From positions 186,001-250,000 of the forward strand of contig NZ_JACVXB010000003.1 in the NCBI RefSeq assembly GCF_014596945.1: a stretch of 64,000 nucleotides of DNA, in the 5' to 3' direction. This document shows positions 37,971-64,000 of this stretch, in pieces. The stretch is from Aestuariibaculum sediminum. Its GTDB lineage: Bacteria; Bacteroidota; Bacteroidia; Flavobacteriales; Flavobacteriaceae. The position numbers and the translations under genes were made by a program. Under the pieces are notes generated by a model. That model did not search any database, was not told the DNA's origin, and saw only the letters and a list, made by a program, of their open reading frames with translations. The first letter of the stretch is position 1. The number at the start of each line of letters is the position of its first letter.

Positions 37971-39332
37971 TCACATTTTATTGTATTTTAGTTGTAACGA
38001 GCTATCGTTAATCTCAAATTCATTATTTTTAATTAGGTGAAGAATTTCTGCTCCTGCCAAAATCACCGGCCCATAGCCGTGAGCTGCAAAAATATGAATA
38101 GGTCTATTGTAATAAAAAGCTGGATCAAAACCCATTCCAGTCCCTACACAAGTACCCTCAACTTCCCCCGTTTGAGAAACTTTTGTTGATATGGCATTCC
38201 ATGCTAAAAGCACAACTGGTGAATATGCTTTTTTATCGATTAGGCCTTTATTAATTGCCTTAGCTAGAGAATAAGTAAAAATAGCAGTAGCCGATGTTTC
38301 CAAATAACTATCATTCCTGTCTATTAGCTGATGCCAAAATCCCGTCTGATCTTGAAATTTTGATAAACCCGCCGAATGAAGTTTAAGTTGTTTCAATATC
38401 AAAGGGTACCCCGAATGACTTTCTGGAAGTACATCTAACAATTCTATAATTGCCATTATTGCCCATCCATTTGCTCTTGCCCAATGATACTGCGGATGCA
38501 TTTCCATATCCTGAACCCAACCATGCATATATAGTCCTTTCTCACTATTAAACATACGCTCAGAAAACTGTAGCACCTGTTTAACTGCATCATCATAATA
38601 TTTTTTTTCACCTGTAAGCTTTCCCATTTGGGCTAGCGCCGGAACGCTCATAAATAAATCGTCTAACCATAATGTATTAGCCTGAGGACGATTTCTTGCC
38701 AAAGTACCATCTTTCAATCGATATTGATTAAAACTTATGTAATCAATAAAATTCTTTATTAATGGATCAAGATCTTTACCTTTACCCAGTCGTTTTAATT
38801 TTATCATAGCAGCACAAATAGCTCCGGCATCATCTAAAGCCTTAGGATGCAAAACCGAATGAATTGATTTTGGTATTTCAATGTCATCGCTATCCATTGA
38901 TTTAAAATATTTCGCTAAAACCGCTATTTGATTTAATCGTTCAATTGTATATTTGGAAAACTTTTCATTTTGAGTTTCTTGACCCGCAAGAAGCATTCCT
39001 GCATACGTAACCCCCCATTCATAACTGGTTAATCTAAAAAGTCCCTCTGCAAAATCCGCATAATCATTTAATTGACTTAATTCCTCTTGTGTTCTTTTAT
39101 CAATTATTTTCGTAGGTGTAGATTTATCCAAAAACCTATATATACTATTTAATGTTTCAATAACTTTTTCTTGAGATGTTGGGCCATAGGGTGTTGGATA
39201 ATCTGGCTGTAAAAGATGTAATGGTTTAGTTACATCGTTCACTGGTTTGTTTTGAGAAGTGGAAATACCACTTACTAACACAAACATAATAACATTGAAA
39301 AATTTAAAGCCGTTAAAAAAGTATGTCTTCAT
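37971..39332 (-). CDS. GH105 family unsaturated uronyl hydrolase
   Basis: A 453-residue exported protein with a hydrophobic signal segment (about residues 1-26) and an (alpha/alpha)6-barrel. The GH105 (YteR/YesR-like) signatures are LWLDDLFMSVPALAQMGKLTG (Asp224/Asp225, including the catalytic acid), YHWARANGWAIMAIIELL and SYLETSATAIFTYSLAKAI. Such enzymes hydrate the C4-C5 double bond of an unsaturated uronic acid left by a polysaccharide lyase, releasing the non-reducing sugar. It lies 76 nt downstream of a lyase-like gene on the same strand, which fits a lyase/hydrolase pair. A weak AT-rich hairpin (37912-37940) may end the transcript. Confidence 0.87.
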   Translation of the reverse strand: MKTYFFNGFKFFNVIMFVLVSGISTSQNKPVNDVTKPLHLLQPDYPTPYGPTSQEKVIETLNSIYRFLDKSTPTKIIDKRTQEELSQLNDYADFAEGLFRLTSYEWGVTYAGMLLAGQETQNEKFSKYTIERLNQIAVLAKYFKSMDSDDIEIPKSIHSVLHPKALDDAGAICAAMIKLKRLGKGKDLDPLIKNFIDYISFNQYRLKDGTLARNRPQANTLWLDDLFMSVPALAQMGKLTGEKKYYDDAVKQVLQFSERMFNSEKGLYMHGWVQDMEMHPQYHWARANGWAIMAIIELLDVLPESHSGYPLILKQLKLHSAGLSKFQDQTGFWHQLIDRNDSYLETSATAIFTYSLAKAINKGLIDKKAYSPVVLLAWNAISTKVSQTGEVEGTCVGTGMGFDPAFYYNRPIHIFAAHGYGPVILAGAEILHLIKNNEFEINDSSLQLKYNKM

Positions 39333-39408
39333 TTTTTAGTCTATTTATAATATCTTATTCTAATAATATTAGATTAATTTAATTAAAATACATTTTACTT
39401 TAATAATA

Positions 39409-41586: not shown

Positions 41587-42465
41587 ATGGGATCTGTATC
41601 TAAAACCAATAAAGGAAACCCGATGCTCAACATTGATGATTGGGAAGAAAATTTAAAACAACGCTATCCTGAACCTGAAATGCCTGTAAAAAACAAAGAG
41701 GAATTTCGGAATTATGTAGATTCAGACCGCGCCAAAACAGTAAGAGAGTTTTACCGACTCAATCATAAACTTCAAACGTACGACTTTGTAAGTAAAAAGG
41801 AAGAAGAGTTTCTAAAATTCAATAAAAAAGAAATGTCTCTGTGGGAAGCCGTAGACTTTCTAAACACTTTAGTTGACGACAGTGACCCCGATATTGATTT
41901 AGACCAATTACAACATTTGCTACAAACATCAGAAGCTATAAGAGCCGATGGGCATCCCGATTGGTTTGTACTTACTGGTTTTTTACATGACATCGGTAAA
42001 GTTCTTTGTCTTTTTGGTGAGCCGCAATGGGCTGTAGTTGGAGACACATTTCCTGTGGGTTGCAAATTTTCGAACAAAATAGTGTATCCTGAATTTTTTA
42101 AAGAAAATCCTGATTCAAAAGACGAACGTTATAACACACATTATGGTATCTATACTCCAAAGTGCGGTCTAGATCAAGTAAAAATGAGTTGGGGCCACGA
42201 CGAATATCTATATCAAATCATGAAAAACTATTTACCTGAACCGGCACTATATATAATTCGTTACCATTCCTTTTACGCCCAACATAGAGAGAATGCCTAT
42301 ACACATTTAATGAACAAAAAGGACATTGAAATGTTTGAATGGGTAAAGAAATTTAATCCTTACGATTTATATACTAAGGCACCTAAAAAACCAAACTCAA
42401 AACAACTAAAACCTTATTATGAAGATTTGGTAAGTAAGTATTTGCCAGCCACTTTAAAATTCTAA
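41587..42465 (+). CDS. Myo-inositol oxygenase (MIOX)
   Basis: A 292-residue cytosolic di-iron oxygenase that opens myo-inositol to D-glucuronate. All six iron ligands known from mammalian MIOX can be placed: His110 (QHLLQTSEAIR), His134 and Asp135 (FLHDIGKV), His204 (WGHDEY), His227 (RYHSFY) and Asp260 (FNPYDLYTK). The flanking signatures WAVVGDTFPVGC and RNYVDSDRAKTVREFYRLNH are also strongly conserved. There is no signal peptide. It is followed 30 nt later by a sodium/solute symporter, giving an import-and-oxidise pair. Most bacteria use inositol dehydrogenase instead, so this route is notable. Expression is predicted to follow the operator at 41370. Confidence 0.93.
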   Translation: MGSVSKTNKGNPMLNIDDWEENLKQRYPEPEMPVKNKEEFRNYVDSDRAKTVREFYRLNHKLQTYDFVSKKEEEFLKFNKKEMSLWEAVDFLNTLVDDSDPDIDLDQLQHLLQTSEAIRADGHPDWFVLTGFLHDIGKVLCLFGEPQWAVVGDTFPVGCKFSNKIVYPEFFKENPDSKDERYNTHYGIYTPKCGLDQVKMSWGHDEYLYQIMKNYLPEPALYIIRYHSFYAQHRENAYTHLMNKKDIEMFEWVKKFNPYDLYTKAPKKPNSKQLKPYYEDLVSKYLPATLKF

Positions 42466-42495: not shown

Positions 42496-44067
42496 ATGCT
42501 CTTTACCTATTTGGGGTTCTTCGGATTTACGTTATTTGTAATTTTGTACACGACTTATAAACTACGAAAAGATAAATTCACAACATCCAAAGGGTACTTT
42601 TTAGCAGGAAAAAGTCTTACAGGCCCCATTATTGCGGGCTCGATGATACTTACCAACATTTCCACAGAACACCTAATAGGAATGAACGGTAATTCTTATA
42701 AAAATGGAATCATCGTCATCGCATGGGAAGTAACATCGGCTATTGCATTGGTTATTGCTGCCATATATTTTATTCCCAAATTTATAAGGATGGGGCTAAC
42801 AACAATTCCCGAATTCCTAGAAAAACGTTTTGATGGAGCTATCAGGACCATAGTTGCTTTTTTACTAATGTCTTCTTTTGTTGTAACCTTACTGCCCATT
42901 GTATTATACTCTGGCGCTATTAATATTGAAAGTGTATTTGATTTTTCATTGATGTTTAATATCTCCAAAGAACAATCCTTAATTTACACGATTCTAACCA
43001 TTGGTATTATAGGTTCTTTATATGCTATTTTTGGCGGTTTAAAGGCTGTTGCCTATTCGGATTCCCTAAATGGCATTGGGCTTATTTTAGGAGGTTTATT
43101 AGTTCCTGTAATTGCGCTTTATCAAATTGGAGATGGACATATCTTTAACGGCCTAAGTAAAGTATATAATTTTGATCCTGAAAAGTTCAACATTATCGGA
43201 AAGCCAGACTCCACTTTACCATTTTCGGTATTATTCACTGGTTTAATGATTAATCAATTGTACTTTTGGGGTATGAACCAAGCCATAGTGCAAAGAGCAT
43301 TTGGTGCAAAAAATTTGGTAGAAGCACAAAAAGGACTTATTTACACAGGGGTTTTAAAATTATTTGTTCCCGCTATTATCGTCTTACCAGGATTAATTGG
43401 ATTTTACTACTTCCAAGACCAATATTATGATAGCCCCGATTTAATATACCCCTTATTAGTAAAAAAGGTTTTACCAACTTATCTTTATGGTTTCTTTGCA
43501 GCAGTTATATTAGGGGCTGTTTTAAGTACCTTTAATAGTGTTTTAAATTCCGCAAGTACTATTTTTTGTTTAGACATTTATAAAAAACTTATAAATAAAA
43601 ATGCCGAAGATTCAAAAGTTGTTCGATACGGTAAACTGTCTTCTGTTATTTTAGCCGTTATATCAATTTCAGTAGCACCACTGGTTGCCTTTGCACCCGA
43701 AGGTCTCTACCAACTATTACAACAATTAAATGGTATCTTTTTCATTCCTATATCGTCAATAATTATTGCCGGCATCTTTTTTAAACAAATAAACACTGTA
43801 GGAGCTAAAGCGGGTTTATTTTTCGGCTTTTCATTTTATATATTAACCACCTTTATTCTAAACTTAGATATCCACTTCGTACACCTTTGGGGTATCGAAT
43901 TTGTCTTAAATTTTTTGATCATGTTTTCTGTTTCAAAATTATTCCCAAAAAATGAAACACATCCAGAAATGCAAAAAGGACAAGAAGAAAAATCTTGGAA
44001 ACATGTTAAATTAGGTGGTTTTATATTGGTTTCCCTTACCATTTTAATTTACATACTACTTTCGTAA
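42496..44067 (+). CDS. Sodium/solute symporter (SSS/SLC5 family), probable inositol or uronate importer
   Basis: A 523-residue inner-membrane protein with about 13-14 hydrophobic helices. SSS-family signatures include GYFLAGKSLTGPIIAGSMILTN (start given as GYFLAGKSLTGP), the long helical core with LYAIFGGLKAVAYSDSLNG (residues 177-195), MNQAIVQRAFGAKN and FFAAVILGAVLSTFNSVLNS. It belongs to the SLC5 sugar/inositol branch. Substrate is inferred from the preceding inositol oxygenase gene, 30 nt upstream: myo-inositol is the simplest candidate, a free uronic acid the alternative. It has no terminator visible directly after; the next operator lies 226 nt downstream. Confidence 0.88.
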   Translation: MLFTYLGFFGFTLFVILYTTYKLRKDKFTTSKGYFLAGKSLTGPIIAGSMILTNISTEHLIGMNGNSYKNGIIVIAWEVTSAIALVIAAIYFIPKFIRMGLTTIPEFLEKRFDGAIRTIVAFLLMSSFVVTLLPIVLYSGAINIESVFDFSLMFNISKEQSLIYTILTIGIIGSLYAIFGGLKAVAYSDSLNGIGLILGGLLVPVIALYQIGDGHIFNGLSKVYNFDPEKFNIIGKPDSTLPFSVLFTGLMINQLYFWGMNQAIVQRAFGAKNLVEAQKGLIYTGVLKLFVPAIIVLPGLIGFYYFQDQYYDSPDLIYPLLVKKVLPTYLYGFFAAVILGAVLSTFNSVLNSASTIFCLDIYKKLINKNAEDSKVVRYGKLSSVILAVISISVAPLVAFAPEGLYQLLQQLNGIFFIPISSIIIAGIFFKQINTVGAKAGLFFGFSFYILTTFILNLDIHFVHLWGIEFVLNFLIMFSVSKLFPKNETHPEMQKGQEEKSWKHVKLGGFILVSLTILIYILLS

Positions 44068-44375: not shown

Positions 44376-47333
44376 ATGATGAAAAAACTCTTAATGATTT
44401 GTATATCGCTAGGATCTCTGTTAACAGTTTATGGACAGAATCTCGCAATCACGGGAAGCGTAACAGATCAAAATGGTGTACCATTACCGGGTACAAGTAT
44501 TGTGGAAAAAGGAACTTCAAATGGAAGCGTTACAAGTTTTGATGGTAACTTTAATATTACCGTAAGCAATTCAGATGCGACTTTAGTGGTTTCTTACATA
44601 GGATACAAAACCCTCGAAATCCCAGTAAATGGGCAAGCAAATATCCAAATTAAACTTGAAGAAGATTCTGCACAATTAGACGAGGTTGTTGTAGTTGGAT
44701 ATGGCCAAACAAAAAGCAAGGATTTAACAGGGTCTGTTAAAGTTATTGGAGCTAATGATTTCAATAAGGGGATAAACAATTCTCCTGGTCAATTATTACA
44801 AGGTAAAATTTCTGGTGTAAATGTAACATCTGGTTCAGGAGAGCCAGGAAGTGCTATTGACATTAATATTAGAGGTGTAAATACTGTTAGAGGAGATGGA
44901 AATCCCCTTTTTGTAGTTGATGGTGTTCCGCTTGACGGAGGTTCTTCAAGCAGTGAGTCTATACCGGGTTTAGGAGCAACTAGATCAAGAAGTCCACTAA
45001 ACTTTTTAAATCCGCAGGATATTGAAAGCATAACCGTTTTAAAAGATGCTTCGGCAACTGCCATATACGGAACTAGAGCTTCTAATGGTGTGGTAATTAT
45101 ACAAACAAAAAAAGGAAAACAAGGGAAACCTACTGTTACTTTAGGAACATCCCTTGGAGTTGCCACTGTAGCAAGAGAAATAGACTTACTAAATGCAAAT
45201 GAGTATCGCGAACAAACGGCCCGTCTTGCAGCTATAGTTGGGAGAGACCCTAACAGCTATATTGACGCAGCAAATGCCAATACTAACTGGCAAGATGAAA
45301 TTTACCAAACAGCACTTACTCAAAATTATAACTTTGGCTTTTCTGGAGGCTCAGAAAAAACCAATTATAATGTATCCATAGGATATCTAGACCAAGAAGG
45401 TTTAGTAAAAACAACTGGGCATGAAAAAGTAAACGGAAGAATAAACATAGGAACCTCTGCTTTGGACGACCGCTTAAAGTTACAGCTAAACCTTACTGCT
45501 GCCGACTTAACCGACGAAAGCCAAGCTACAGGTGGTTCTGCTAGTTCTGACGGAAACTTAATCACCTCTGCTCTTAGAGCAAACCCAACAGCAGCACCTA
45601 GAGATGAAAATGGTAACCTAGTAACAAGAACAGGAGCTACAGATAATCCTGTTTCATTTTTTGACCTATACCGTGACCGAGCAGAAAGCAAAAGACTTCT
45701 CGCTAACTTATCGGCTACATATACAATTCTAGAAGGATTAGATTACAAAGTAAATTTAGCTTACGAAAATGCCGATACCGACCGTTACATAAGAGTATTT
45801 AGTAATGCTGACAATGGTGGCTCAATTGATACTGACCAAGTAACCCTAGTTTCAAGAGAGGATTCCAATAAATTAATCGAAAACTATTTTACATATGCTA
45901 AAGAATACGAAAAGTTAAATTTTGATATACTTTTAGGGCATTCGTATCAAGTATTTAATAACAAGGATGTTAGAATTAGAAGAGACGACTTTAGCACAAC
46001 CGAAATAGACCCTATTTATAACTTAGGAATTGCTCAAGGTAATGCTATTATTGGATCAAGTAATACTGAAAGAAAGCTACAGTCATTCTTTGGAAGGGTT
46101 AATGCTAACATACTTGATAAGTACTTAATAACTGCATCACTAAGAGCCGATGGATCGTCTGTATTTGGTAAAAATAATAGATATGGTTATTTCCCATCTG
46201 CAGCATTTGGTTGGAAAATTATAGAAGAAGAATTTCTTAAAGATTCAAATGTATTTTCTAATTTAAAATTAAGATTAGGTTGGGGGCAAACTGGAAACCA
46301 AGCTGTCCCTGTAAGAGTTACACAACCCTCATACAACATCTCTTTCGATAATAGTTTTACTTTTAACGGAACAACTGTAGTTAATGGGCTTGGAATAACA
46401 CGTACACCTAATCCTGATCTAAAATGGGAGGTTACAGAACAATTCAACGTAGGTTTAGATTGGGCCATCCTAAACGGTAGAGTTAGTGGTACAATAGATT
46501 ATTTTGACAAAACCACGACCGATTTATTCTTAGAAGTTTCAGCGGCTGCTCCGGCATCTGTCAATACAGTTTTTGTGAATTCTGATGCAAAAATTATCAA
46601 CAATGGATTTGAATTTGGTGTTGATGCAAATATTATAAGATCTAATGATTTTACACTTGATTTTGGAGGCAATATATCTTTCTTAAACAATACAATTGAA
46701 GGCTTAGATACAGATATTTATGTAGGGGGCATTTCTGGACCAGGTGCCTCTGGTGAAACCAGTAGCATATTTACTAACGGTGAATCTGCAGGATCATTTT
46801 ACTTGTATAAATTTGATGGATTTGATGCGGACGGAAACGAAAGTTTATCAGAAACTCGACAAATTGTAGGAGATGCTTTGCCTAAAACTATATATGGTTT
46901 TAACATTAATGCAAGCTATAAAAACTTTGATCTCGCTTTGAACTTTAACGGAGTTGGCGGTGTTGATATTTTCAATAACACTGCAAGAGCTTACTCAAGT
47001 GCTGCCTCATTGGCTCAAAACGGAAACAACATTTACCGTGCTTACCTTGATGTTAATGAAAACCCTCTTGTGGCTCCTGTCTCTTCTTCTAGATATATAG
47101 AAAACGGCGCGTTTTTAAGATTGAATAATGCTACATTAGGGTGGAACATACCTGATGCATATTTTGCTAGTAACCTAAGGCTATATTTAACAGGACAGAA
47201 TCTTTTTGCAATAACAGATTATTCGGGTTATGACCCTGAAGTGAATACCGCAGGAGGTAACACTTACGGCGTGGACTTTTCCGCCTACCCCCGTCCTAGA
47301 ACAATTATTTTAGGTTTAGACCTTTCATTCTAA
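44376..47333 (+). CDS. SusC/RagA-family TonB-linked outer-membrane transporter
   Basis: 985 residues. Signal peptide MMKKLLMICISLGSLLTVYGQ (the second ATG at 44379 could also serve). A carboxypeptidase-regulatory-like domain (NLAITGSVTDQNGVPLPGTS) follows, then the canonical LDEVVVVGYGQ linker, plug domain (PGQLLQGKISGVNVTSGSG, PLFVVDGVPL, ITVLKDASATAIYGTRAS) and a barrel ending TIILGLDLSF. It forms the importer for the enzyme-rich locus with the SusD encoded 40 nt downstream. It is preceded by the local operator, so it is expected to be induced by the locus's own ligand. Confidence 0.96.
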   Translation: MMKKLLMICISLGSLLTVYGQNLAITGSVTDQNGVPLPGTSIVEKGTSNGSVTSFDGNFNITVSNSDATLVVSYIGYKTLEIPVNGQANIQIKLEEDSAQLDEVVVVGYGQTKSKDLTGSVKVIGANDFNKGINNSPGQLLQGKISGVNVTSGSGEPGSAIDINIRGVNTVRGDGNPLFVVDGVPLDGGSSSSESIPGLGATRSRSPLNFLNPQDIESITVLKDASATAIYGTRASNGVVIIQTKKGKQGKPTVTLGTSLGVATVAREIDLLNANEYREQTARLAAIVGRDPNSYIDAANANTNWQDEIYQTALTQNYNFGFSGGSEKTNYNVSIGYLDQEGLVKTTGHEKVNGRINIGTSALDDRLKLQLNLTAADLTDESQATGGSASSDGNLITSALRANPTAAPRDENGNLVTRTGATDNPVSFFDLYRDRAESKRLLANLSATYTILEGLDYKVNLAYENADTDRYIRVFSNADNGGSIDTDQVTLVSREDSNKLIENYFTYAKEYEKLNFDILLGHSYQVFNNKDVRIRRDDFSTTEIDPIYNLGIAQGNAIIGSSNTERKLQSFFGRVNANILDKYLITASLRADGSSVFGKNNRYGYFPSAAFGWKIIEEEFLKDSNVFSNLKLRLGWGQTGNQAVPVRVTQPSYNISFDNSFTFNGTTVVNGLGITRTPNPDLKWEVTEQFNVGLDWAILNGRVSGTIDYFDKTTTDLFLEVSAAAPASVNTVFVNSDAKIINNGFEFGVDANIIRSNDFTLDFGGNISFLNNTIEGLDTDIYVGGISGPGASGETSSIFTNGESAGSFYLYKFDGFDADGNESLSETRQIVGDALPKTIYGFNINASYKNFDLALNFNGVGGVDIFNNTARAYSSAASLAQNGNNIYRAYLDVNENPLVAPVSSSRYIENGAFLRLNNATLGWNIPDAYFASNLRLYLTGQNLFAITDYSGYDPEVNTAGGNTYGVDFSAYPRPRTIILGLDLSF

Positions 47334-47372: not shown

Positions 47373-49004
47373 ATGAAAAAACGTTTAATTATTCTAATTA
47401 TCATGATGGTTTCTGTTTTCGGATATCAATCATGTAACATTGATGAAAATATAATCGATGAGGCCCGAGGCGAAGACTTATTGAAAGACGCAGACCCTTT
47501 AAGTCTTCTAGCTCCAGCTTACAATTCTATGCGTAGAGTATATGGACACAGATGGTTTTTTGCGTTACAAACCTTTTCTGCCGATGAAGGCATGGTCCCA
47601 ACAAGACAAAGTGATTGGTTTGATGGAGGTACGTTTCAAGAATTACATAGACATGATTGGAAACCAGAACATCGTTACACCAGAGAAACTTGGGAACATA
47701 TCACTACAGGACTGGCTAATGCCACATTAGCTATTGATTTCTTAGAAGCTGGTACACAAGAACAAGCCGAGGCAATAGCGCTTTTATCTCATTACATGTG
47801 GGTAGCTTTAGATGCCTATGGTCAAGTTCCTTATCGAGGAATTGAAAATATTGATTTCAATGCTGATTCTCAAATATTAACTGGTGCCGAAGCCGTTAGT
47901 ACAATTATTACAAATTTAGAATTAGCCTTGCCCAACTTACCTACAGGTAAGAACACAGTACGATTTACGCAAGACGCTGCAAAATCATTATTAGCTAGAG
48001 TTTATTTAAACAGAGCTGTTTATGAAGATCGATATGCGTCTAGTTTCAGCTTTGCTAATGAAGATATGCAACAAGTTATAAACCTAACCACCGAGATTAT
48101 TAATAGTACCAATCATGCTTTAGAAACAGACGACTACTTTAGTATTTTTGATCCAGATAACGAAAACCACAAAGAAATTATTTGGGCAGTAAAAAACGAA
48201 AAAACGTCAGTGCGTATTGGAGGTAGAAGCGTTACAAGAAATACTACAAATGGACTTTCTCGTGGTTATATCTATATTTCTCCAGATGGTGATTTTTTAA
48301 CAGGATCGGATGCAGGATGTACTTTACCCGATTTCTTAGACACCTGGGATTCGGATAATGACCCAAGGTTTTTTAAAGCTAACTATCCTAATGAAGAAGG
48401 CACAATTCCTTTATCTGATTACAAAGTACACCGAGGGTTTCTCGAAGGTCAATTATATGGAATTAAAAATGATAACGGCACCCCTATCATTAATTCTGAC
48501 CAAACTATAGATATAGTTCCTGTGCAACTTTGGACACGTGATCAATCTTTAGCAAATCACACTAGAGAAGTTAGTTTAATTGCAGAAAACCAATCTGTAG
48601 GTGTAAGAGTTTCTAAGTGGGGTATAGATGATATAGGTTCAAATCGCGATGACACTGGGGTCGACATTGTTGTATTTAGGCTAGCTGAGATGTACTTAAT
48701 GCGAGCAGAAGCCATACTCAGGTCAGGATTAGCAGGAAATGCCTTAGATGATGTTAATGCAGTTAGAGTTGCTCGAGGTGGAGTTAGTTTCGCTAAAACA
48801 AATGTAACCTTAGAAGATGTTTATAATGAACGTGGTTACGAATTCTATTGGGAGTACCATAGAAGAACAGATCAAATTAGGTTTGGAAAATGGGAAGATT
48901 CATGGACTGATAAGACCGACACAGATCCTAATCATAGAATATTTGCAATTCCTCCAGGTCCTTTGGCTACAACACCAGGATTAGTACAAAACCCAGGATA
49001 CTAA
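47373..49004 (+). CDS. SusD/RagB-family outer-membrane lipoprotein
   Basis: 543 residues. Lipoprotein signal ends VFGYQSC, then NIDENIIDE. SusD-like helices follow; EMYLMRAEAILRSG and YEFYWEYHRRTDQIRFGKW near the C-terminus match the RagB/SusD C-terminal signature. Cell-surface glycan-binding partner of the preceding SusC. A clean terminator follows the stop codon by 35 nt. Confidence 0.94.
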   Translation: MKKRLIILIIMMVSVFGYQSCNIDENIIDEARGEDLLKDADPLSLLAPAYNSMRRVYGHRWFFALQTFSADEGMVPTRQSDWFDGGTFQELHRHDWKPEHRYTRETWEHITTGLANATLAIDFLEAGTQEQAEAIALLSHYMWVALDAYGQVPYRGIENIDFNADSQILTGAEAVSTIITNLELALPNLPTGKNTVRFTQDAAKSLLARVYLNRAVYEDRYASSFSFANEDMQQVINLTTEIINSTNHALETDDYFSIFDPDNENHKEIIWAVKNEKTSVRIGGRSVTRNTTNGLSRGYIYISPDGDFLTGSDAGCTLPDFLDTWDSDNDPRFFKANYPNEEGTIPLSDYKVHRGFLEGQLYGIKNDNGTPIINSDQTIDIVPVQLWTRDQSLANHTREVSLIAENQSVGVRVSKWGIDDIGSNRDDTGVDIVVFRLAEMYLMRAEAILRSGLAGNALDDVNAVRVARGGVSFAKTNVTLEDVYNERGYEFYWEYHRRTDQIRFGKWEDSWTDKTDTDPNHRIFAIPPGPLATTPGLVQNPGY

Positions 49005-56161: not shown

Positions 56162-59113
56162 TTATATTTTAGTTTCTTCAGGAAATGCATAAGACGATTT
56201 CCAACCACCTAAATCTATCAATATTTGATCTATCAATACCCCTGGATCTACCATCCAAACCTTTAATGTATGTTTACCTGGTCTATCTAAGATTTGTTTG
56301 GCAGTTTGTACGGCGGCATTTTTTAAAACATTATCTTTCCAATCTGCGCTTCTCCCTATCGTTTCAAAATCAATAATTTCAGGAGGAGCATCATCTACAG
56401 AAACCGCACATCTTACTCCTCTACCTTCAAACTGAGCATGCGTAGGAACGGCTTGAATATTAATGCTAACTTCTCCAAAATTAAATATATAAAAATCATA
56501 CATTAGAACTGGACTTTTACTTAGAATGTCGGTCTTTAAAACCTGTGGGCTTACTCTCCTTGGTAGTGCCACAACTGAAGCCCCTGTATAACCTAACCCT
56601 TCAATAATTTCGTAAGTAGCATCTAAACCATTTTGTTTTTTTGTGTAATTTTCGGCATTTATTACCACATAACCCTTATCTTCAACAAATCCTTTATAAT
56701 CTTTTAATTCAGAAAACTTAGGATTAAAAACAGAGACTCCTACAGAATAATTTTCATCATTGGTAATGAATTCTATAGCTGAATTCACTTTAAAACTTGG
56801 CGGAATTAATTGAAAATCATGGCCCAAAGGTGCTTCCTTTTTATCTTCTCCTTTTGGTACTTTTTCCCAATCTATACTAACCAATAATCGTTCTTCAGGT
56901 TTGTCAGAATTTAATACACCTGAAGTTTTTGATAAGCTAATCCAATCTGCCTTTGGTTTGGCTTCCCACTTTAATGTTCCCTCTTTTTTTAAAAATACAT
57001 CAATAAAGTACGAATTTTTAGTGTAAGCATTAAAAATTGGCAATACATCTGCAAAAGAGTTTATAGTATTATTATTGAGCTCCATTTCATAACCTTCCAA
57101 AGCTATGCCTAATGAAAGTTTATCATTTCGGTTAGGAAATTTCATTGAGGGAAGGGAAAACACAGGCAAGTTTCTAGGCGCACTATTCATTATATTTTTC
57201 CACTTACCTTGTTTTAAATCTTGATTAAAATATTTAGTTTCTAAAATTATACGATTATAAGCTTCCTTAGACTTTTCAGCATAATACTTAGCACTAAATC
57301 TACCTTGTGAAGCCGAAAATTCATTCCTGTAGGCATAGAGCCATTTATGGTTTAAACTGGCGGCTCCAATAACTGGGTAATAAATTAATTGATAAAATGC
57401 ATCTTGTTTATTTACTGCAATATCATTTTTTAACACCTCAACTGAATCTATTAATTGCTGATAGGCTGCGATACGCTTTGTCACCTCATCTCCATAAAAT
57501 ATATGTGTTAATTCTGTAGGTTTTGCCTTGGTAACGGGCTCTACCTGGCTCCAAGCCATAAATTCTGGACGTCTTTTAAATGCTAAATTGTCGTATTCAA
57601 TCATTAGATTAGTTATCTGTTGAGCATGTTTTAATCCAAACTCCCTAGTAGCCCAATTAAACCTATGTTTTTTTACATCTTGACTATTCTTAAAATTAGT
57701 TATATCCCAAGCCATGTCTAAAAACAGTTCTATATTGTATTCATGAGGTTTTATGTCTCCACAATTTAAAATCCAAATTTCCCGTGAGTTAAAATCATAA
57801 GCCTTGAACATTTCTTCCCACATCAAAACAGGATTTGTAGAATTAAGCCATAAATAATCATGTGGTCTCCCCCAATACGAGGTATGGTAATACACTCCAG
57901 CTCCACCTCCCCTTTTTTGTTCGCTTGGGTTACTTAGTTGACGAATATATCCATAATTATCATCAGTCCAGACCAAGGTAATATCATCAGGTAATTTTAA
58001 TCCTTTTTTATAATACTTCAAAACTTCTTTATAAGGGACAAATGCTTGTGGTTTAACCGTTTTTTGTTCTGAATTACTTCTTAATATTTCTCGTTGATCA
58101 AAAATAACTTGCTCTAGTAATTTAACTTGAGATTGCGTATCATCTTCTCCTACAATCATTGGAGAGTCATGTTCACCTCTCATACCTACGGTATAAATAC
58201 TTTCATAATCAGCTGTTTGCCTGGCTCTTTCACGAAAAAGGTTTTTAACATTTTCAGAATTTGTGTCGTATCTATATTCACCCATTGTTTTATGATTCCA
58301 CTCGGCATTTATATTGCAAAGCATAGGTTCTGCATGCGAAGAGCCAACAACCATTGCATAGTTGTCGGCTGTTTCTTTATTTTTCGGATATGAATAAAAT
58401 GCTTGAGTACATTTATGCATTGCTGGCCAAAAGGTGTTTGCGCGCAACCTCAACAATAACTCAAAAATTTTAGCATAGGTTTTAGGTCCAATGTCTCCAA
58501 TTTCTGGTTCATAATTTAATGCTGCCCAACGTTGCAACCCCCAATCTTCGTCATTTAAAAAAATGCCTCTATATTTTACCGAAGGTTCGCCATAAATGAT
58601 TGGCTCTTGTTTAAGAATAATTTCAGCTTGCTTGTCGGGTTTTACATCTGCCCACCATTCCCAGGGAGAAACTCCTACCTTTCTTGATAATTCTAATAAA
58701 CCATAAGCCGTGGCTCGTCTGTCTGACCCCAAAACCACTAAAGCCTTTTGAATATCTTTTGAAGGGTTATTTAAAACTTGAATACTAAAAGTTTCCCATT
58801 TATTTTCTACAGGAGACGAATCTAACTTACCTTCTTTTATCCATTTATTCAGAAGTTTATGACTCCCTATAGTACCAGCTACGATTACGTATGGACTATT
58901 CCTTGCGGATAGTTGAAGTTTTACACCAGAAACCTGATATACATCATTAATCAATATTTTTGCCGCTATATCAACGACCTTAGCATCCTTTTTATCTATA
59001 ATTATTGTAGCATTGTGCTCTAGCTTAACAACAGGAAACTCGTTTTTTGATTGTGAATATCCTAAAGTTATTGTTGATAATAAAACACAACATGCTTTAA
59101 AAATTCTATTCAT
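56162..59113 (-). CDS. GH115 family alpha-glucuronidase
   Basis: 983 residues, exported (signal MNRIFKACCVLLSTITLGYSQ is cleaved near residue 20). GH115 features run in order: an N-terminal alpha/beta domain with GSDRRATAYGLLELSRKVGVS, the TIM-barrel catalytic region (KYRGIFLNDEDWGLQRWA, LLRLRANTFWPAMHKC, MRGEHDSPM, WTDDNYGYIRQLS, YYHTSYWGRPHDYLWL, EIWILNCGDIKPHEYN) and C-terminal beta domains. GH115 enzymes remove alpha-1,2-linked glucuronic or 4-O-methyl-glucuronic acid, usually from xylan or arabinogalactan. The same linkage joins GlcA to inositol in glycosyl inositol phosphorylceramides. It overlaps the PI-PLC-like gene by 8 nt, so the two are translated together. Confidence 0.94.
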   Translation of the reverse strand: MNRIFKACCVLLSTITLGYSQSKNEFPVVKLEHNATIIIDKKDAKVVDIAAKILINDVYQVSGVKLQLSARNSPYVIVAGTIGSHKLLNKWIKEGKLDSSPVENKWETFSIQVLNNPSKDIQKALVVLGSDRRATAYGLLELSRKVGVSPWEWWADVKPDKQAEIILKQEPIIYGEPSVKYRGIFLNDEDWGLQRWAALNYEPEIGDIGPKTYAKIFELLLRLRANTFWPAMHKCTQAFYSYPKNKETADNYAMVVGSSHAEPMLCNINAEWNHKTMGEYRYDTNSENVKNLFRERARQTADYESIYTVGMRGEHDSPMIVGEDDTQSQVKLLEQVIFDQREILRSNSEQKTVKPQAFVPYKEVLKYYKKGLKLPDDITLVWTDDNYGYIRQLSNPSEQKRGGGAGVYYHTSYWGRPHDYLWLNSTNPVLMWEEMFKAYDFNSREIWILNCGDIKPHEYNIELFLDMAWDITNFKNSQDVKKHRFNWATREFGLKHAQQITNLMIEYDNLAFKRRPEFMAWSQVEPVTKAKPTELTHIFYGDEVTKRIAAYQQLIDSVEVLKNDIAVNKQDAFYQLIYYPVIGAASLNHKWLYAYRNEFSASQGRFSAKYYAEKSKEAYNRIILETKYFNQDLKQGKWKNIMNSAPRNLPVFSLPSMKFPNRNDKLSLGIALEGYEMELNNNTINSFADVLPIFNAYTKNSYFIDVFLKKEGTLKWEAKPKADWISLSKTSGVLNSDKPEERLLVSIDWEKVPKGEDKKEAPLGHDFQLIPPSFKVNSAIEFITNDENYSVGVSVFNPKFSELKDYKGFVEDKGYVVINAENYTKKQNGLDATYEIIEGLGYTGASVVALPRRVSPQVLKTDILSKSPVLMYDFYIFNFGEVSINIQAVPTHAQFEGRGVRCAVSVDDAPPEIIDFETIGRSADWKDNVLKNAAVQTAKQILDRPGKHTLKVWMVDPGVLIDQILIDLGGWKSSYAFPEETKI

Positions 59114-60173
59114 AAGCCTTTATTTTTTCATACTTACCATTCTCAAAAATTACCTTAAACTGGGATTCAAACAAATTTGATGGAATATAGTAATCGGTAG
59201 AAATGACCTGTGCACCAGATGCCATAGCTTGTTCAAACCTTGAGTAATCATTCAATCTCGCTTCAATAGTACCCGCATCTGCTCGTGTTCGTACCATATA
59301 TCCCTTTTCTACCAATTGCTTTATATAATCAAAATCCTGTATTGGATTATTGATTACTCGAAATGCTGCCTCGGGACTCCCTTCTTTACTATTTGTAAAT
59401 AATACACGCCCTTTTAATGATGGATGCCCCATTACATATTCTTTTATTCTGGTTTCATTTTCATCAAGAACAAATAAAAAACGCCCCTTAACCGAATCTA
59501 AAGTTGGCCACCCCCTATTAAGTATTGCTTGTTCCAAAGTTTCAAAATGGCCTCTAACCAAATCTGGAGTAATTATTTTGTCCTCTGGAAAAATATTTCT
59601 TATTTCAGAATCTAGACTATCAAGCGCCGACTTACCAAATTTTAAAGGTTGTTTGAGATTATCTATCTCTTTATCTTTAGTATTGATTAACACAAAAACA
59701 GGGGTATGTTTTGGGTTAGCATCAGACCATTGTTTTAAAACGTATAAACCCTCTTTAAACATTAAATGATGGCTTCGAAAATCAATGTCCTGAATATGAA
59801 ACATTTTTAAACCCGGCATTACCAACTTAGCCTCAACATCAAAAAGTAAAGAAACTTTCCCCTTTTGACTTATCATTGCCAAACCTTTCGGATTAGCATA
59901 GTAACCTCCTTTTGGATCAAAAAACACATCTAACTCTAGGTTCCTTAATCCTAAATTTAATTGATGCTCCAGGGGTATATGTCCGTATTGTAAAGATTTG
60001 GCCTTTGAGGAGTCCTTTTCATAAAGTATACTCCATAAAGGTTTTTCAATTTCAATTTTATAAGAATTATGACTACCTATTACTTGTAAATCGTTTAATC
60101 TAATAATGCAGTTTCTCTCTTTGCAAGTCCCCAAAAAAAATAACGTTATTACGCATAATTTTCTAAAATACAT
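59106..60173 (-). CDS. Ca2+-dependent phosphoinositide phospholipase C-like lipoprotein
   Basis: 355 residues with a lipoprotein-like signal (LFFLGTC). The fold is a TIM barrel of the PI-PLC superfamily. Segments typical of the Ca2+-dependent PI-PLC-C1 family are QVIGSHNSYK (catalytic His), LNLGLRNLELDVFFDPKGG (Ca2+-binding Glu/Asp), HIQDIDFRSHH (second His region) and late RTRADAGTIEARLND. Such enzymes cleave the phosphodiester between inositol phosphate and a lipid. It is directly translationally linked to GH115 (8-nt overlap). This is one of the strongest clues that the locus deals with an inositol phospholipid. Confidence 0.85.
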   Translation of the reverse strand: MYFRKLCVITLFFLGTCKERNCIIRLNDLQVIGSHNSYKIEIEKPLWSILYEKDSSKAKSLQYGHIPLEHQLNLGLRNLELDVFFDPKGGYYANPKGLAMISQKGKVSLLFDVEAKLVMPGLKMFHIQDIDFRSHHLMFKEGLYVLKQWSDANPKHTPVFVLINTKDKEIDNLKQPLKFGKSALDSLDSEIRNIFPEDKIITPDLVRGHFETLEQAILNRGWPTLDSVKGRFLFVLDENETRIKEYVMGHPSLKGRVLFTNSKEGSPEAAFRVINNPIQDFDYIKQLVEKGYMVRTRADAGTIEARLNDYSRFEQAMASGAQVISTDYYIPSNLFESQFKVIFENGKYEKIKAYE

Positions 60174-60279: not shown

Positions 60280-62586
60280 TTAGTTTCCCTCCATGGTTAG
60301 GCGTAAAGTTCCTCCTTTTGTAATTTGCTCATGTGAAAGTTTAAATTCGCTTAATTTACGATCGTTAAAAAACAAATGCTTAACAAATACGTGGTCGGCA
60401 TCGTTATTTTCAGCTTCAATTATAAATGGTTTGGATTGATAATATTTTGGATTGAGCTGAATGGTAACTCTATCAAAAATAGGACTACCAATTTGATATT
60501 CAGGGTTTTCTTCCGTACCTCCATTTAACTGAAATAATCCTATTTTCATTAAAACATTCAAACTCCCCATCAATCCTTGATCTTCATCTCCATTATACCC
60601 TGTATTTGGCGATAAGCCACTAAAAGCCTTTTCAATAACTTTACGACTCCAATACTGTGTAAGGTCTGGCCGACCTAATTTGTTAAAAACAAAAGCCGTT
60701 TGTATTGAAGGTTGATTTCCATAATTTATTGGTATTCTGCTGTATTCGGGATGTAATTCAGAATCGTGAGAAGTCCCTGAAGTAAATTTTAGTTCTTCTG
60801 CTGTCTGAAATTGTTTAACCAATTTTTGAACAGCTTTTTCTTTCCCTCCCATTAACTCTGCTAAACCTAGCAAGTCATGAGGTACAAACCAAGTGAATTG
60901 AGCTGCATTAGATTCGATAAAACCATGTTCATATTGAAATGGATCAAAATCTTCATACCAATGGCCTTTCAGGTTCTTTGCTCTCATCCACCCCACTACT
61001 GAATCAAACACATTCTTATAATTGTTTGATCGTTCTGTGAAATACACAAAATCATCTTGTTTTTCTATTTTTTTAGCTAGCTGTGCCAAAGTCCAATCCT
61101 GATAAGCGTATTCCAAAGTTTGACTCGCTCCATCCTGATGGCCTCCAAATTTACCTTCCGGTATAGGATATGGTACAAATCCATTTTTAATATAATAGTT
61201 TAACCCTCCTCCAATACTTGTTTTGTGCTCATATCCAGCCTTTCCCATAATTCCTCCAAGCATATGGTTTTTTTTAAGCGCATTGTAAATAGTATCTAAA
61301 AATTCGGTTACGATTTCCTTTTGGATGGCACTAACTATAAAAGGAGTAGATGAAGCTCCTGTCATCACAAAAGTGTAATTACCTCCAGATGGTCCACGAG
61401 CTACCAATCCTCCATCTTTGTAATATTGCATAAGAGATTGTGTAAAATCATGCATGATTTCTGGATACACGAGCCCCCAGAGCGTATTGATTGTCCATTG
61501 CGCACCCCAAAAAGCATCAGAATTATAATGATTAAATTTAGGAATACCATGTTCATCAAGAGGTAATTGCCCTATTTTAAATTCTTCTTTGGTGTTATCT
61601 GGATACGCACCGTTAACGTCACTTATTATGCGACGACCTTGCAAAGCATGCCATAAATCAGTATAAAACCTAGATTGTGATTGTTCACTCCCACCTTCTA
61701 TAAGAATTCGGCTTAACAAATCATTCCACTCCTGCTGTGATGCCTTTACAGTTTTTTCAAAATCCCAATCAGTTAATTCCGAACTCATATTTTTAGTGGC
61801 ATTTTCGTAAGATGTATAGGATATAGCCAATTTCATTAACACCGGATCTTTAAGAGTTTCCAGTCTTACCAGATAATTTCCTGTTGCTTTATCTTTCTCA
61901 ACATTATCAATATCCCTATTTAATTCTACTTTAAAGTAAACTGTTAAAGGTTTTGGTCTACGATGCGTAGAAGCCATTACGATTTGCCCCTTTAAAACAT
62001 TTTTATCGAGCTGTTGTAATTGCCCCATAATATTTTCACAAGGTCCTAAAATTGTGTTTAAATTAAATAATATTGCAGGTTGCTGATCTTCTTTAAATGT
62101 ATACTTATGAAACCCCACACGCTTAGTACTGGTTAACTCTACCGAAATCCCATATCGATCCAGACTTAATTGATGGTATCCTGGTTTTACAACTTCTTTA
62201 TCATGACTAAATTTCGAGTAATAATCTACAAATAAATTACTAGGAGAGCTTTTAGGAACACCTATTGGCATTACCGACACACCAGACATCTGCCATGCAT
62301 GAATATGACTAAACCCCTTTATAGTATCTGTTGTATATCTATAACCACTTCCCCATGCACCCCCTATTTGCGTATCTGGACTCAAATTTACCATTCCAAA
62401 TGGTCTACTGGCCGAAGAGAAAAAAAACCACCTTGAATTTTCAGTGTCTAATAAAGGATAAACTTTGTCAATTAATGATTTACTTAGTACTTTTTGCTTC
62501 TGTTCTTTTTTACAAGCCATGGCCAGAGATAGCAGCGCCACTGTAAATAGCAGGATTTTATTTCGTAATAAATTAGAAATTGACAT
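60280..62586 (-). CDS. GH92 family alpha-mannosidase (lipoprotein)
   Basis: 768 residues with a lipoprotein signal (LLSLAMAC, Cys near 25). The N-terminal beta-sandwich and (alpha/alpha)6 catalytic domain are complete. Residues matching the Bacteroides GH92 active site have the correct spacing: Glu558 (FIESNAAQFTWF, general acid), Asp667 and Asp669 (GDEDQG, base), 109 and 111 residues later. GH92 are Ca2+-dependent exo-alpha-mannosidases. The usual GNEPSHH motif reads GNQPSIQ here (Gln625), and QMSAWYV reads LMGSLNV, so the leaving-group subsite probably differs from alpha-1,2-mannosidases. GH28 lies 40 nt upstream and the PI-PLC gene 106 nt downstream. Confidence 0.92.
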   Translation of the reverse strand: MSISNLLRNKILLFTVALLSLAMACKKEQKQKVLSKSLIDKVYPLLDTENSRWFFFSSASRPFGMVNLSPDTQIGGAWGSGYRYTTDTIKGFSHIHAWQMSGVSVMPIGVPKSSPSNLFVDYYSKFSHDKEVVKPGYHQLSLDRYGISVELTSTKRVGFHKYTFKEDQQPAILFNLNTILGPCENIMGQLQQLDKNVLKGQIVMASTHRRPKPLTVYFKVELNRDIDNVEKDKATGNYLVRLETLKDPVLMKLAISYTSYENATKNMSSELTDWDFEKTVKASQQEWNDLLSRILIEGGSEQSQSRFYTDLWHALQGRRIISDVNGAYPDNTKEEFKIGQLPLDEHGIPKFNHYNSDAFWGAQWTINTLWGLVYPEIMHDFTQSLMQYYKDGGLVARGPSGGNYTFVMTGASSTPFIVSAIQKEIVTEFLDTIYNALKKNHMLGGIMGKAGYEHKTSIGGGLNYYIKNGFVPYPIPEGKFGGHQDGASQTLEYAYQDWTLAQLAKKIEKQDDFVYFTERSNNYKNVFDSVVGWMRAKNLKGHWYEDFDPFQYEHGFIESNAAQFTWFVPHDLLGLAELMGGKEKAVQKLVKQFQTAEELKFTSGTSHDSELHPEYSRIPINYGNQPSIQTAFVFNKLGRPDLTQYWSRKVIEKAFSGLSPNTGYNGDEDQGLMGSLNVLMKIGLFQLNGGTEENPEYQIGSPIFDRVTIQLNPKYYQSKPFIIEAENNDADHVFVKHLFFNDRKLSEFKLSHEQITKGGTLRLTMEGN

Positions 62587-62626
62587 TTTGTATTGCTTAT
62601 TTAATTTTGAATAACAACTTTTATAA

Positions 62627-64000
62627 TTACATTGATCTTACCAAGTCCTTTAATTCTGGGCTTATATCAACATTTTCAGTTGTTTTCAAAAGGATTTGCT
62701 TATGTTTTATTTTAGGAATAGTTATTTGCTCCATTTTAATTCCATACACCTCATCAAAAACAAATGCTGGTCTAAAATCTTTATCTTTTAGTTCTAAAAT
62801 CACATTTTTAAAGAGTACACCTCTGACATGACGTATATAAAACCCCCAGGCTGGTAGTTCGCCAAACATTGTAAATTCAGGATAATCTTTAATTTTTTCA
62901 GGCACTTGTTCTAAACGGCTTAAAGGGACATAGGCCATTCCTTTTGACGCTCTACCAGGGTAAGAAATTTTAATATTTTCTAATATTACATTCTCTATAT
63001 GGCATTCAGGAATACCAACAATTGAAGAAGGAATCGGGTTATGAAAAAAGTTTACAGCGGGGCCTCTCAGGTCATAATCTGTATCTGGTCTACCAAATGG
63101 AATTTGAACTTCTATATCATGTATAATTATATTTTTAATTATACCAGGTGTCTCTCCATCTCGGTGCCCTAATCTAATAAATATGGCATTACCCGTGTTC
63201 ACCGCATTTATACGAGAGACATTAATATTTTCAATAATACCCCCATCAACACTTTCTATAGCTATTGCTGATCGAAATGTATCAAATACCTCAATATTTT
63301 CAATGGTTACATTTTTAAATCCACCATAAGAAGCTGTACCAAACTTAATAGCGCTTGCACTTGACCTTATCTTACAATTAGCAATGTAAATACTATCATT
63401 TAAATGGCTAGGATAATAAGACTTTAAGCATATTCCATCATCAGCAGAATTTACGTCACAATTGGTAATTTGTACATTTTTACAATCAGTGACATCTATA
63501 CCATCATTATTCCAGTAAGCTCGATTTACGATTTTTAAATTATTTAATCTAAGCTTTTCACATAACTCAAAGGACGCCCCCCAACAAGCACTACTATGCA
63601 AGTTCAAATCAGTAATTGATACATTTTTACAACTAGAAAATCGCAATAATTTTGGTCGAGCTGTTTCATTTGGTCGCATCCTACGATAATTATACAGAGG
63701 ATCTATTTTAACCCCGGCGTGATGAAGGCTATCTACATTTAAGGCTAATTTTCGCCCTTGACCGTCAATTTTACCTTCGCCATAAATTTTAAAATTATGC
63801 GCTTTAAACGCTACTAAAAACGCCATTTGAGAATTATCATCTTGTTTAGGAGTATTTGGTCTTCCAGACATTTCCAAACTAACGTAATCGTATGGATTCG
63901 TACTTCCAAGAAGCGTAGCTCCATTTTTTAAGTACAAATTTACATTGGACTTCATTTCCAAGCTTCCTGACAAATAAACTCCCCTTGGAAAAACTAAAGT
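62627..64000 (-). CDS. GH28 family polygalacturonase-like enzyme, partial (5' end off window)
   Basis: At least 457 residues; the open frame runs through the right edge (…TLVFPRGVYLSGSLEMKSN) so the start and signal peptide are outside. A right-handed parallel beta-helix with GH28 motifs is present: WNNDGIDVTDCKNV, SADDGICLKS (catalytic Asp pair), SSASAIKFGTASYGGFKNV (in place of GHG) and the IFIRLGHRDGE region (in place of RIK). This variant pattern is seen in Bacteroidota exo-acting GH28 members rather than fungal endo-polygalacturonases. It probably releases terminal galacturonic acid, but specificity is open. First visible gene of the minus-strand operon. Confidence 0.9.
   Translation of the reverse strand, partial: TLVFPRGVYLSGSLEMKSNVNLYLKNGATLLGSTNPYDYVSLEMSGRPNTPKQDDNSQMAFLVAFKAHNFKIYGEGKIDGQGRKLALNVDSLHHAGVKIDPLYNYRRMRPNETARPKLLRFSSCKNVSITDLNLHSSACWGASFELCEKLRLNNLKIVNRAYWNNDGIDVTDCKNVQITNCDVNSADDGICLKSYYPSHLNDSIYIANCKIRSSASAIKFGTASYGGFKNVTIENIEVFDTFRSAIAIESVDGGIIENINVSRINAVNTGNAIFIRLGHRDGETPGIIKNIIIHDIEVQIPFGRPDTDYDLRGPAVNFFHNPIPSSIVGIPECHIENVILENIKISYPGRASKGMAYVPLSRLEQVPEKIKDYPEFTMFGELPAWGFYIRHVRGVLFKNVILELKDKDFRPAFVFDEVYGIKMEQITIPKIKHKQILLKTTENVDISPELKDLVRSM

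Follow-up and report, generated by a model that had tools for sequence, protein, structure and literature searches.

What kind of substrate would call for a phospholipase, a phosphatase, glycosidases and an inositol oxygenase within a single locus? This question is raised by a 64,000-nucleotide stretch of Aestuariibaculum sediminum DNA (contig NZ_JACVXB010000003.1, positions 186,001 to 250,000; hereafter the window), from a genome of 4.04 Mb. From position 37,971 to the end of the window lies a polysaccharide utilization locus (PUL): the susC and susD genes are adjacent, genes for glycoside hydrolases (GH) of families GH88, GH43, GH115, GH92 and GH28 are linked to them, and the hybrid two-component system (HTCS) regulator is complete. 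An earlier note on this DNA, made from the letters alone, had proposed that the locus serves the use of a glycosylated inositol phospholipid, and every gene that it listed is present; apart from that of the lyase-like protein, which has no Pfam match, all were confirmed by Pfam: those for a phosphatidylinositol-specific phospholipase C (PI-PLC, or PLC), a metallophosphoesterase (MPE), GH115, GH92, GH43, GH105, myo-inositol oxygenase (MIOX), a sodium:solute symporter (SSF), SusC, SusD and the HTCS. All Pfam family matches used for the locus genes exceed their Pfam cut-off, and a GH28 gene at the right edge is a member additional to that list. In order of transcription, the minus-strand operon reads GH28, GH92, PI-PLC, GH115, MPE, HTCS and GH43; the plus strand carries MIOX, SSF, SusC and SusD; and a left minus-strand pair consists of a 597-residue protein and then GH88. 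The substrate is quite probably a head group like that of glycosyl inositol phosphorylceramide (GIPC), i.e., of a glycosylated inositol phospholipid with glucuronic acid (GlcA) on the inositol, the likeliest being a plant or algal GIPC. As judged from gene content and conservation, this reading is the best of the explanations that we considered.

In the published passages cited here, the plant GIPCs characterised so far carry GlcA as the first sugar on inositol phosphoceramide, followed by a variable sugar (PMC8099651, PMC12201980). The best described of these is GlcNAc(a1-4)GlcA(a1-2)inositol-P-ceramide (PMC8099651), where GlcNAc is N-acetylglucosamine. The second sugar can be mannose (Man), glucose (Glc), GlcNAc or glucosamine (GlcN), with arabinose (Ara), galactose (Gal), Man and fucose (Fuc) further out, and the barley lipid is given as Hex-HexN(Ac)-HexA-IPC, i.e., hexose, (N-acetyl)hexosamine and hexuronic acid on inositol phosphorylceramide (IPC) (PMC12201980).

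Does the gene set hold together in related bacteria? In a sample of 299 genomes of the same family, PF16670 matched in 24 genomes at E 0.001, which gave 21 full-length PLCs, and the flanks of these were mapped over about 19 kb on each side where contigs allowed. Ten of the 21 loci are of a CAZyme-rich class, termed type A, namely that of the window and those of G044, G228, G207, G229, G152, G002, G260, G203 and G061. Type A loci share an HTCS that is 53-71% identical to that of the window over nearly its full length, together with a GH92-type gene, MIOX and SSF; MPE is present in nine of the ten, and GH115 or a distant GH115 of 685 residues in all of them. MIOX lies within 21 kb of the PLC in each type A locus, and exceeds its Pfam cut-off in only 47 of the 299 genomes. 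Nine loci are of type B, with SusC, SusD, PLC and often MPE, and with no homologue of a window glycosidase beside the PLC. The loci of G006 and G135 fit neither type; in G006 (joined stretches L032+L033, 18448-26400) a PLC is present, MIOX has two in-frame TGA stops and SSF is in a fragment, so that this is possibly a decayed type A copy. A full-length PLC occurs in 10 of the 12 genomes with a GH115 of the locus clade described below, as against 11 of the 287 others (Fisher p = 1.6e-11, a guide only, the genomes being related and 15 of the 69 GH115 matches not fetched). The conserved synteny for which the earlier note had proposed a search does exist: the set PLC-MPE-HTCS-GH92-(GH115)-MIOX-SSF recurs across genera. 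A chance neighbourhood was rejected because the PLC/MIOX/GH115 set recurs both in this sample and in the named loci that follow.

A scan of named GTDB species found at least 530 relatives with the type A alignment, and the best-scoring 80 were read over at most 10 kb on each side of the PLC, shortened by contig ends. Here type A was defined by our own identity thresholds as HTCS plus GH92 or GH115; 46 of the 80 named PLC loci are of this type, a share biased upward by score selection with the type A alignment. Five of the 80 named loci apparently overlap the family sample (L096=G260, L101=G203, L104=G229, L107=G044, L120=G152). MPE is present in 45 of the 46 type A loci, locus-type GH115 in 36 and distant GH115 in 21. 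Any GlcA-acting gene (GH115, distant GH115 or the type of the 597-residue protein) is present in 44 of the 46, and all 10 type A loci of the family sample have one as well; it is lacking from L118 and from L114, where the contig breaks off about 5 kb upstream of the PLC. The outer-sugar cassettes vary across the same 46 loci, with GH89 plus an HGSNAT-kind acetyltransferase in 7, GH29 in 20, GH125 in 9 and none of these in 10. The seven loci with GH89 and HGSNAT all belong to Flavobacterium (undicola, glycines, sufflavum, a metagenome-assembled genome, daejeonense, pokkalii and palustre), a genus that we take from its name to be non-marine, and those with GH29 stand mostly in genera that we presume to be marine. 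Near-constant GlcA genes together with variable outer-sugar genes are the pattern of published GIPCs, and not, as far as known, of glycosylphosphatidylinositol (GPI) anchors or phosphatidylinositol mannosides (PIMs). As a separate observation, in an Algoriphagus locus (L131:7907-9724, minus strand) a protein with alkaline phosphatase and GDPD_2 segments adjoins the PLC, which suggests phosphate scavenging from inositol lipids.

Which genes would act at the GlcA? The candidates for the alpha-1,2-GlcA on inositol, as predicted from sequence and structural model, are the GH115 clade and the pair of lyase-like protein and GH88. The 26 GH115s from loci of this kind, including loci without the PLC, form one clade (SH-aLRT, an approximate likelihood-ratio support, 100), outside which fall 37 other GH115s, BoAgu115A and the Saccharophagus enzyme (SdeAgu115A). 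Members of the locus clade are 57-68% identical to the window GH115, which is at most 48% identical to the 37 others. The tree is a quick one without bootstrap, with three solved chains entered as partial stretches. Locus-type GH115s occur in 37 named loci (the 36 of type A and L089), and 14 of these proteins entered the tree. In the family sample there were 69 GH115 matches, of which 15 were not fetched and were treated as non-members of the locus clade; among them, four (G212, G236, G011, G001) are of the distant 685-residue type. The same genome has a second GH115, 44% identical, in a different locus (G000:C14:100500-105500; L186, L206), with weak GH88-, GH2- and SASA-like genes and SusCD as neighbours. 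The locus GH115s have the family domains and the Asp/Arg/Asp positions in common with BoAgu115A, SdeAgu115A and BtGH115A, while standing apart as a separate clade: Asp188, Arg312 and Asp316 of the window protein align with Asp206, Arg328 and Asp332 of BoAgu115A, and these positions are conserved in 26 of the 26 locus GH115s examined. A role as a xylan enzyme was rejected, since the locus clade is apart from BoAgu115A and the Saccharophagus enzyme, the two xylan enzymes in the tree. The nearest solved relative is BtGH115A, on a long branch and with weak support (85). According to the passages cited, BtGH115A is inactive on xylan and active on arabinogalactan, an activity termed unusual because the GlcA there is beta-linked (PMC9063842), and we infer that there is therefore room for other substrates in this part of GH115.

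The 597-residue protein has no Pfam match, and a PDB sequence search returned only one chance match (E 0.93). A first AlphaFold model, from 4 close rows, was poor (pLDDT 49.7), and its lyase fold matches were not relied on. The model from a 17-row alignment (pLDDT 84.1, pTM 0.82) matches uronate lyases, which bears out the label 'lyase-like' given to the protein from its letters: the best Foldseek matches are GAGase VII, alginate lyases, BtPL33HA and chondroitin/hyaluronate lyases (E 1e-10 to 1e-6). With the toroid uronate lyases (PL8, PL17, PL33, GAGase VII; Foldseek E down to 1e-10) it would share a toroid plus beta fold, whereas sequence identity to them is about 8-12% and the TM score about 0.5. 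Residues N127, H180, N183, H184 and R279 are invariant in the 17 rows (not superposed on a known active site). The protein is thus a candidate lyase for 4-O-substituted GlcA. The window's order of lyase-like protein and then GH88 suits, on the predicted model, a route other than GH115, in which a 4-O-substituted GlcA undergoes beta-elimination and the unsaturated GlcA left by the lyase-like protein may then be removed by the GH88/GH105 enzyme, for which 3k11 is the nearest solved chain (480 bits) and GH105 chains come next.

Homologues of the lyase-like protein were found in 14 of 395 genomes of the phylum, and for nine of these the stretch read contains a PLC or MIOX. In a distant family, the gene stands directly beside the PLC in G461 (order SusC-SusD-lyase-PLC), G621 and G411, the stretches of the latter two being short; in G329, of another family, the order is MIOX-SusC-SusD-lyase-SSF; and the nine are completed by the window and by four loci of Flavobacterium type, G490 being the one among these four that has the PLC. 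The loci of this distant Bacteroidota family (L236 in G461, L196 in G621, L197 in G411) look like a mini-locus of lyase-like protein, PLC and SusD, with SusC in G461, and no GH115 or MIOX homologue was found in the stretch read. In the Flavobacterium-type loci, a DUF4861 protein (PF16153) of 282-285 residues is encoded next to the lyase-like gene or close by, in the place taken by GH88 in the window, and may be a functional substitute for GH88.

What would the other glycosidases remove? For the second sugar, the window has GH92, whose nearest solved chains are named alpha-1,2-mannosidases, and only relatives have GH89 (alpha-N-acetylglucosaminidase) with the HGSNAT-kind membrane acetyltransferase (HGSNAT_cat 33 bits, cut-off 22; NCBIfam NagX 165 bits, below cut-off). 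This pair is found together in G228, G061, G115, G100, G117 and the seven Flavobacterium loci; the loci of G228, G115 and G117 also contain GH2, and the G061 locus encodes a NagB-type protein resembling glucosamine-6-phosphate deaminase. G628 and G490 have a NagB-type protein, GH2 and distant homologues of GH89 (35%) and HGSNAT (28-29%), by BLAST only, with MIOX, HTCS and MPE. HGSNAT acetylates alpha-GlcN so that GH89 can cut, and for this reason the pair suits GlcN-GlcA-inositol; joined in some relatives by GH2 or the NagB-type protein, it fits Gal-GlcN(Ac)-GlcA-inositol. The same kind of enzyme pair releases GlcNAc from heparan in the lysosomal pathway, while in the sister loci it stands beside GH115, PLC or MIOX, and the window lacks it; among 40 proteins of relative loci given to Pfam, there was no sulfatase over cut-off and no heparin lyase. 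In L157 (G297) and L162 (G144), MIOX, GH89 and HGSNAT occur with SusCD and with GH43 or GH2. The GH43 has homologues of 67-73% identity in the loci of G061, G115, G100 and G117 and is, by its family, a candidate arabinosidase of the head-group glycan. The window GH43 also passes the cut-off of GINT1_N (32.5 bits, cut-off 27), the N-terminal domain of the plant GIPC glucosamine transferase, perhaps only through a shared propeller fold. GH28 has homologues of 72-74% identity in G044, G152 and G260 and of 66% in G228, and its nearest curated models are of rhamnogalacturonidase/polygalacturonase, all below cut-off.

In the PI-PLC, His35 and His126 are invariant in 13 aligned rows, and a lipobox-like signal peptide with lipobox LGTC makes it a probable lipoprotein. 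Its solved relatives 5fyo and 3h4w are PI-PLCs by name and match the PF16670 protein weakly, at about 24-26 bits; the locus enzyme differs from them in being PUL-encoded and a predicted lipoprotein. The MPE has all the metal motifs (DxH, GDxxD, GNHD, GHxH) and a lipobox-like signal peptide with lipobox LISC, and is probably a lipoprotein and an inositol-phosphate phosphatase; no PDB sequence relative was found up to E 0.1. SSF, a probable myo-inositol importer, adjoins MIOX in all 10 PLC-bearing type A loci of the family sample; among the 22 named loci with MIOX it does so in 9, and 11 of the other 13 stretches end at MIOX; in L090 and L099, GH2 adjoins MIOX where SSF stands elsewhere, and SSF does not adjoin MIOX in the PLC-less G211 and G127. 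Genes for UxaC and UxuA are present on other contigs of the window genome, and UxuA (mannonate dehydratase) is encoded next to MIOX, or no more than about 9 kb from it, in G115, G164, G260, G628 and L103, which supports a step from inositol to the glucuronate pool. The proposal that freed inositol is imported and oxidised to join the GlcA pool finds its predicted genes both in the locus (MIOX, SSF) and in the genome.

From this gene content, the locus would work as follows. The PI-PLC would cut the head group off the lipid to give a glycosyl-inositol phosphate, which SusCD would import. Outer Man and Ara would be trimmed by GH92 and GH43, perhaps with GH28, and GlcA would be removed by GH115, or by the lyase-like protein and then GH88 when the GlcA is still 4-O-substituted. 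The MPE would free inositol, SSF would import it, and MIOX would convert it to glucuronate, which would join the GlcA pool; the HTCS would sense a piece of the head group and switch the locus on.

Table. Genes of the locus and its left neighbour, with positions in the window, and DUF4861 genes of relatives, with positions in their own stretches.
Feature	Position	Strand	Match or basis
Mannose-6-phosphate isomerase (neighbour)	36556..37761	+	TIGR00218, 264.7 bits (cut-off 116.2)
GH88/GH105 unsaturated uronyl hydrolase	37971..39332	-	PF07470, E 2.5e-87, 293.6 bits
Lyase-like protein, 597 residues	39409..41202	-	Predicted fold: helical toroid plus beta domain; no Pfam match
MIOX, myo-inositol oxygenase (inositol to D-glucuronate)	41587..42465	+	PF05153, E 1.2e-110, 369 bits
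SSF sodium:solute symporter	42496..44067	+	PF00474, E 3.6e-58; NCBIfam NF007790, 679 bits (cut-off 401)
SusC-type outer-membrane transporter	44376..47333	+	TIGR04056, 774 bits
SusD-type surface glycan-binding protein	47373..49004	+	PF07980, PF14322
GH43 glycosidase	49174..50154	-	PF04616, E 7e-55, 186.8 bits
HTCS, hybrid two-component regulator	50214..54266	-	Reg_prop, Y_Y_Y, HisKA, HATPase_c, Response_reg, HTH_18
Metallophosphoesterase (MPE)	54306..56153	-	PF00149, E 6.7e-12, 46.7 bits
GH115 alpha-glucuronidase	56162..59113	-	PF15979, E 5.4e-130, 434 bits; PF17829
Ca2+-dependent PI-PLC family protein	59106..60173	-	PF16670 (PI-PLC-C1), E 5.2e-124, 414 bits
GH92 alpha-mannosidase	60280..62586	-	PF07971/PF17678, E 1.1e-127; TIGR01180, 387 bits (cut-off 250)
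GH28 glycosidase	62627..64000, on to window-equivalent 64204	-	PF00295; full ORF L002:627-2204
DUF4861 protein of relatives	L069:173-1021; L075:2190-3038; L090:9033-9890; L165:5871-6719		PF16153

Several findings weigh against a GIPC-like substrate. The PLC is present in only 10 of the 17 mapped glycan loci, being missing from those of G115 (of the same genus), G153, G164, G211, G127, G100 and G117. Full-length PLCs are encoded elsewhere in the genomes of G153, G127, G100 and G117; those of G115, G164 and G211 have neither a PF16670 nor a PI-PLC-X match. PI-PLC-X (PF00388), sought as a substitute in 8 genomes, gave two matches, one in G127 at the known PLC and one in G117 below cut-off. Strains without the PLC may live on head groups that others have set free, or may have a phospholipase that went unrecognised. 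The loci of G260/L096, G164, G211, G100 and G117 have no MPE, and two of them (G100 and G117) have no MIOX either; in G164, a PAP2-family protein encoded in the stretch read might stand in for the phosphatase. For 5 of the 14 homologues of the lyase-like protein, neither PLC nor MIOX is in the stretch read; one of these genomes, G448, has two GH88 genes beside the homologue, and a GH88 there is 64% identical to that of the window. In the variant of G297 and G144, the stretch contains neither GH115 nor PLC nor a close HTCS. GH28 is retained by some of the loci. Plant GIPCs as published offer it no substrate, and no galacturonic acid or rhamnose was detected in one study's GIPC fractions, in the passage cited (PMC8099651). 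Variants with GH29/GH3 and with GH125 would imply head groups for which no matching description was found, and the PLC genes cannot tell ceramide from diacylglycerol lipids.

The transport and sensor genes add to these points. Within the family sample, the window SusC is nearer to the SusCs of PLC-only (type B) loci, at 41-43% identity, than to those of type A loci, at 29-32%; in the named set, it is 70-71% identical to the SusC of type A loci L092 and L102, and the window SusD is 73-78% identical in L072, L088, L092 and L102. In identity to that of the window, the HTCS sensors form tiers: of 27 rows compared (16 from sample genomes, 11 from the 46 named type A loci), 20 are at 52-69%, 6 at 38-43% and 1 at 23%. 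These tiers match the outer cassettes imperfectly (L080, L091). One shared ligand therefore cannot be claimed, and the inducer may differ between loci.

Could another lipid, or a polysaccharide, explain the same genes? Another glycosylated inositol lipid, such as actinobacterial PIM/lipomannan, fungal mannosyl-IPC or algal glucuronosyl-phosphatidylinositol, is unlikely. The PI-PLC-C1 family is blind to ceramide as against diacylglycerol, GH92 and GH125 suit mannosides, and GH29 occurs in 20 of the 46 named type A loci where no exactly matching lipid was found described. The near-constant GlcA-acting gene speaks against PIM/lipoarabinomannan and mannosyl-IPC, in which we know of no GlcA, although PIMs, like GPI anchors, have inositol phosphate and mannose; an algal GlcA-phosphatidylinositol may still be the substrate. 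Fuc, for its part, is listed among plant GIPC sugars in the passage cited (PMC12201980).

That the locus is a plant cell-wall locus, for arabinogalactan protein (AGP), glucuronoxylan or pectin, into which an unrelated PLC and MIOX have been inserted, is quite unlikely. GH115, GH43, GH105/88 and GH28 do occur in cell-wall loci, a Maribacter locus with GH115, GH105, GH43, GH78 and GH29 is linked to arabinogalactan in the passage cited (PMC11036162), and the arabinogalactan activity of BtGH115A, the nearest solved GH115, with none on xylan (PMC9063842), would accord with such a role. However, in loci of different genera the same GH115 clade accompanies PLC, MPE, MIOX and SSF, the xylan enzymes BoAgu115A and Sde are in another GH115 clade, and no xylanase, galactanase or pectate lyase family was met among the 40 relative-locus proteins.

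GPI anchors of eukaryotic surface proteins such as AGPs are a very unlikely substrate. Here the PI-PLC would free the glycan, mannosidases with GH89/HGSNAT would strip Man3-GlcN, and MPE and MIOX would use the inositol. The PI-PLC, together with genes for Man (GH92, GH125, GH38) and for GlcN (GH89 plus HGSNAT) in some relatives, suits such a glycan. To our knowledge, GPI anchors combine inositol phosphate and mannose with an invariant GlcN and have no GlcA, but a GlcA-acting gene is in 44 of the 46 named type A loci against GH89 plus HGSNAT in 7, no constant GlcN-acting enzyme was found, the window locus includes no GH89 plus HGSNAT, and it does include the lyase-like/GH88 pair. GPI anchors were placed behind GIPCs because the GlcA-acting, not the GlcN-acting, genes are the constant ones.

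Scavenging of phosphate or inositol from plain phosphatidylinositol or IPC, with the glycosidases serving separate substrates, is most improbable: PLC-only loci (SusC, SusD, PLC, often MPE) are widespread, one has the alkaline phosphatase-GDPD protein beside its PLC, the window SusC is nearest to PLC-only SusCs within the family sample and some Bacteroidetes make plain inositol sphingolipids (PMC9246714, in its account of gut Bacteroidetes), but these lipids have no sugar, in 46 named loci the HTCS, GH92-type and GH115/lyase genes adjoin PLC and MPE or stand between them, and the SusCD type of the window is found in named type A loci.

The claim of a GIPC-like substrate is thus supported by the recurring gene set, the relatives with GH89 and HGSNAT, the near-constant GlcA genes and the recurring lyase-like protein, all of which point to it from predicted functions. 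With HTCS-controlled PULs of Bacteroidetes the locus shares the SusC/SusD pair, the HTCS, secreted glycosidases and divergent operons; it differs by the recurring PI-PLC, MPE, MIOX and inositol-type symporter, and by a substrate that would be a phospholipid head group. The earlier note knew of no described PUL for GIPC, and none was found in the literature searched, with preprints and most subscription journals outside the search. PULs are known, and a recurring one that joins PLC, GlcA removal and inositol oxidation for glycosyl inositol phospholipids is new as far as this search shows. We lean, with some reserve, towards a joint claim: that such loci are a widespread, undescribed class in Bacteroidota for eukaryotic GIPCs; that a core of PLC, phosphatase, GlcA-removing enzyme, inositol import and oxidation and HTCS recurs with outer-sugar cassettes, GH89 plus HGSNAT with Gal/Ara enzymes in Flavobacterium (presumed non-marine) and fucosidase or alpha-1,6-mannosidase in strains presumed marine, that track the host lipid; and that the 597-residue protein is a new lyase family acting on Hex-1,4-GlcA-inositol.

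Around the locus, the gene for mannose-6-phosphate isomerase adjoins it on the left and has a possible link to mannose use, with no homologue labelled among the ORFs of the mapped relatives. Further left (20886-36065, minus strand) is a second SusC-bearing locus with a fasciclin-domain protein. Rfam gave nothing over gathering scores, and ARAGORN no tRNA.

What would such a locus mean for the organism and its relatives? In the passages cited, GIPCs are 30-40 mol% of the plasma membrane lipids of tobacco cells (PMC8158104), and their glycan structures are called largely unknown (PMC8099651). If the GIPC-like reading is true, the locus would offer ready enzymes for dissecting GIPC glycans, and the head groups of uncharted algal GIPCs would be predictable from bacterial gene content. 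The idea of the PUL would be extended from polysaccharides to the head groups of membrane lipids, and the recycling of carbon, phosphate and inositol from plant and algal debris would be joined.

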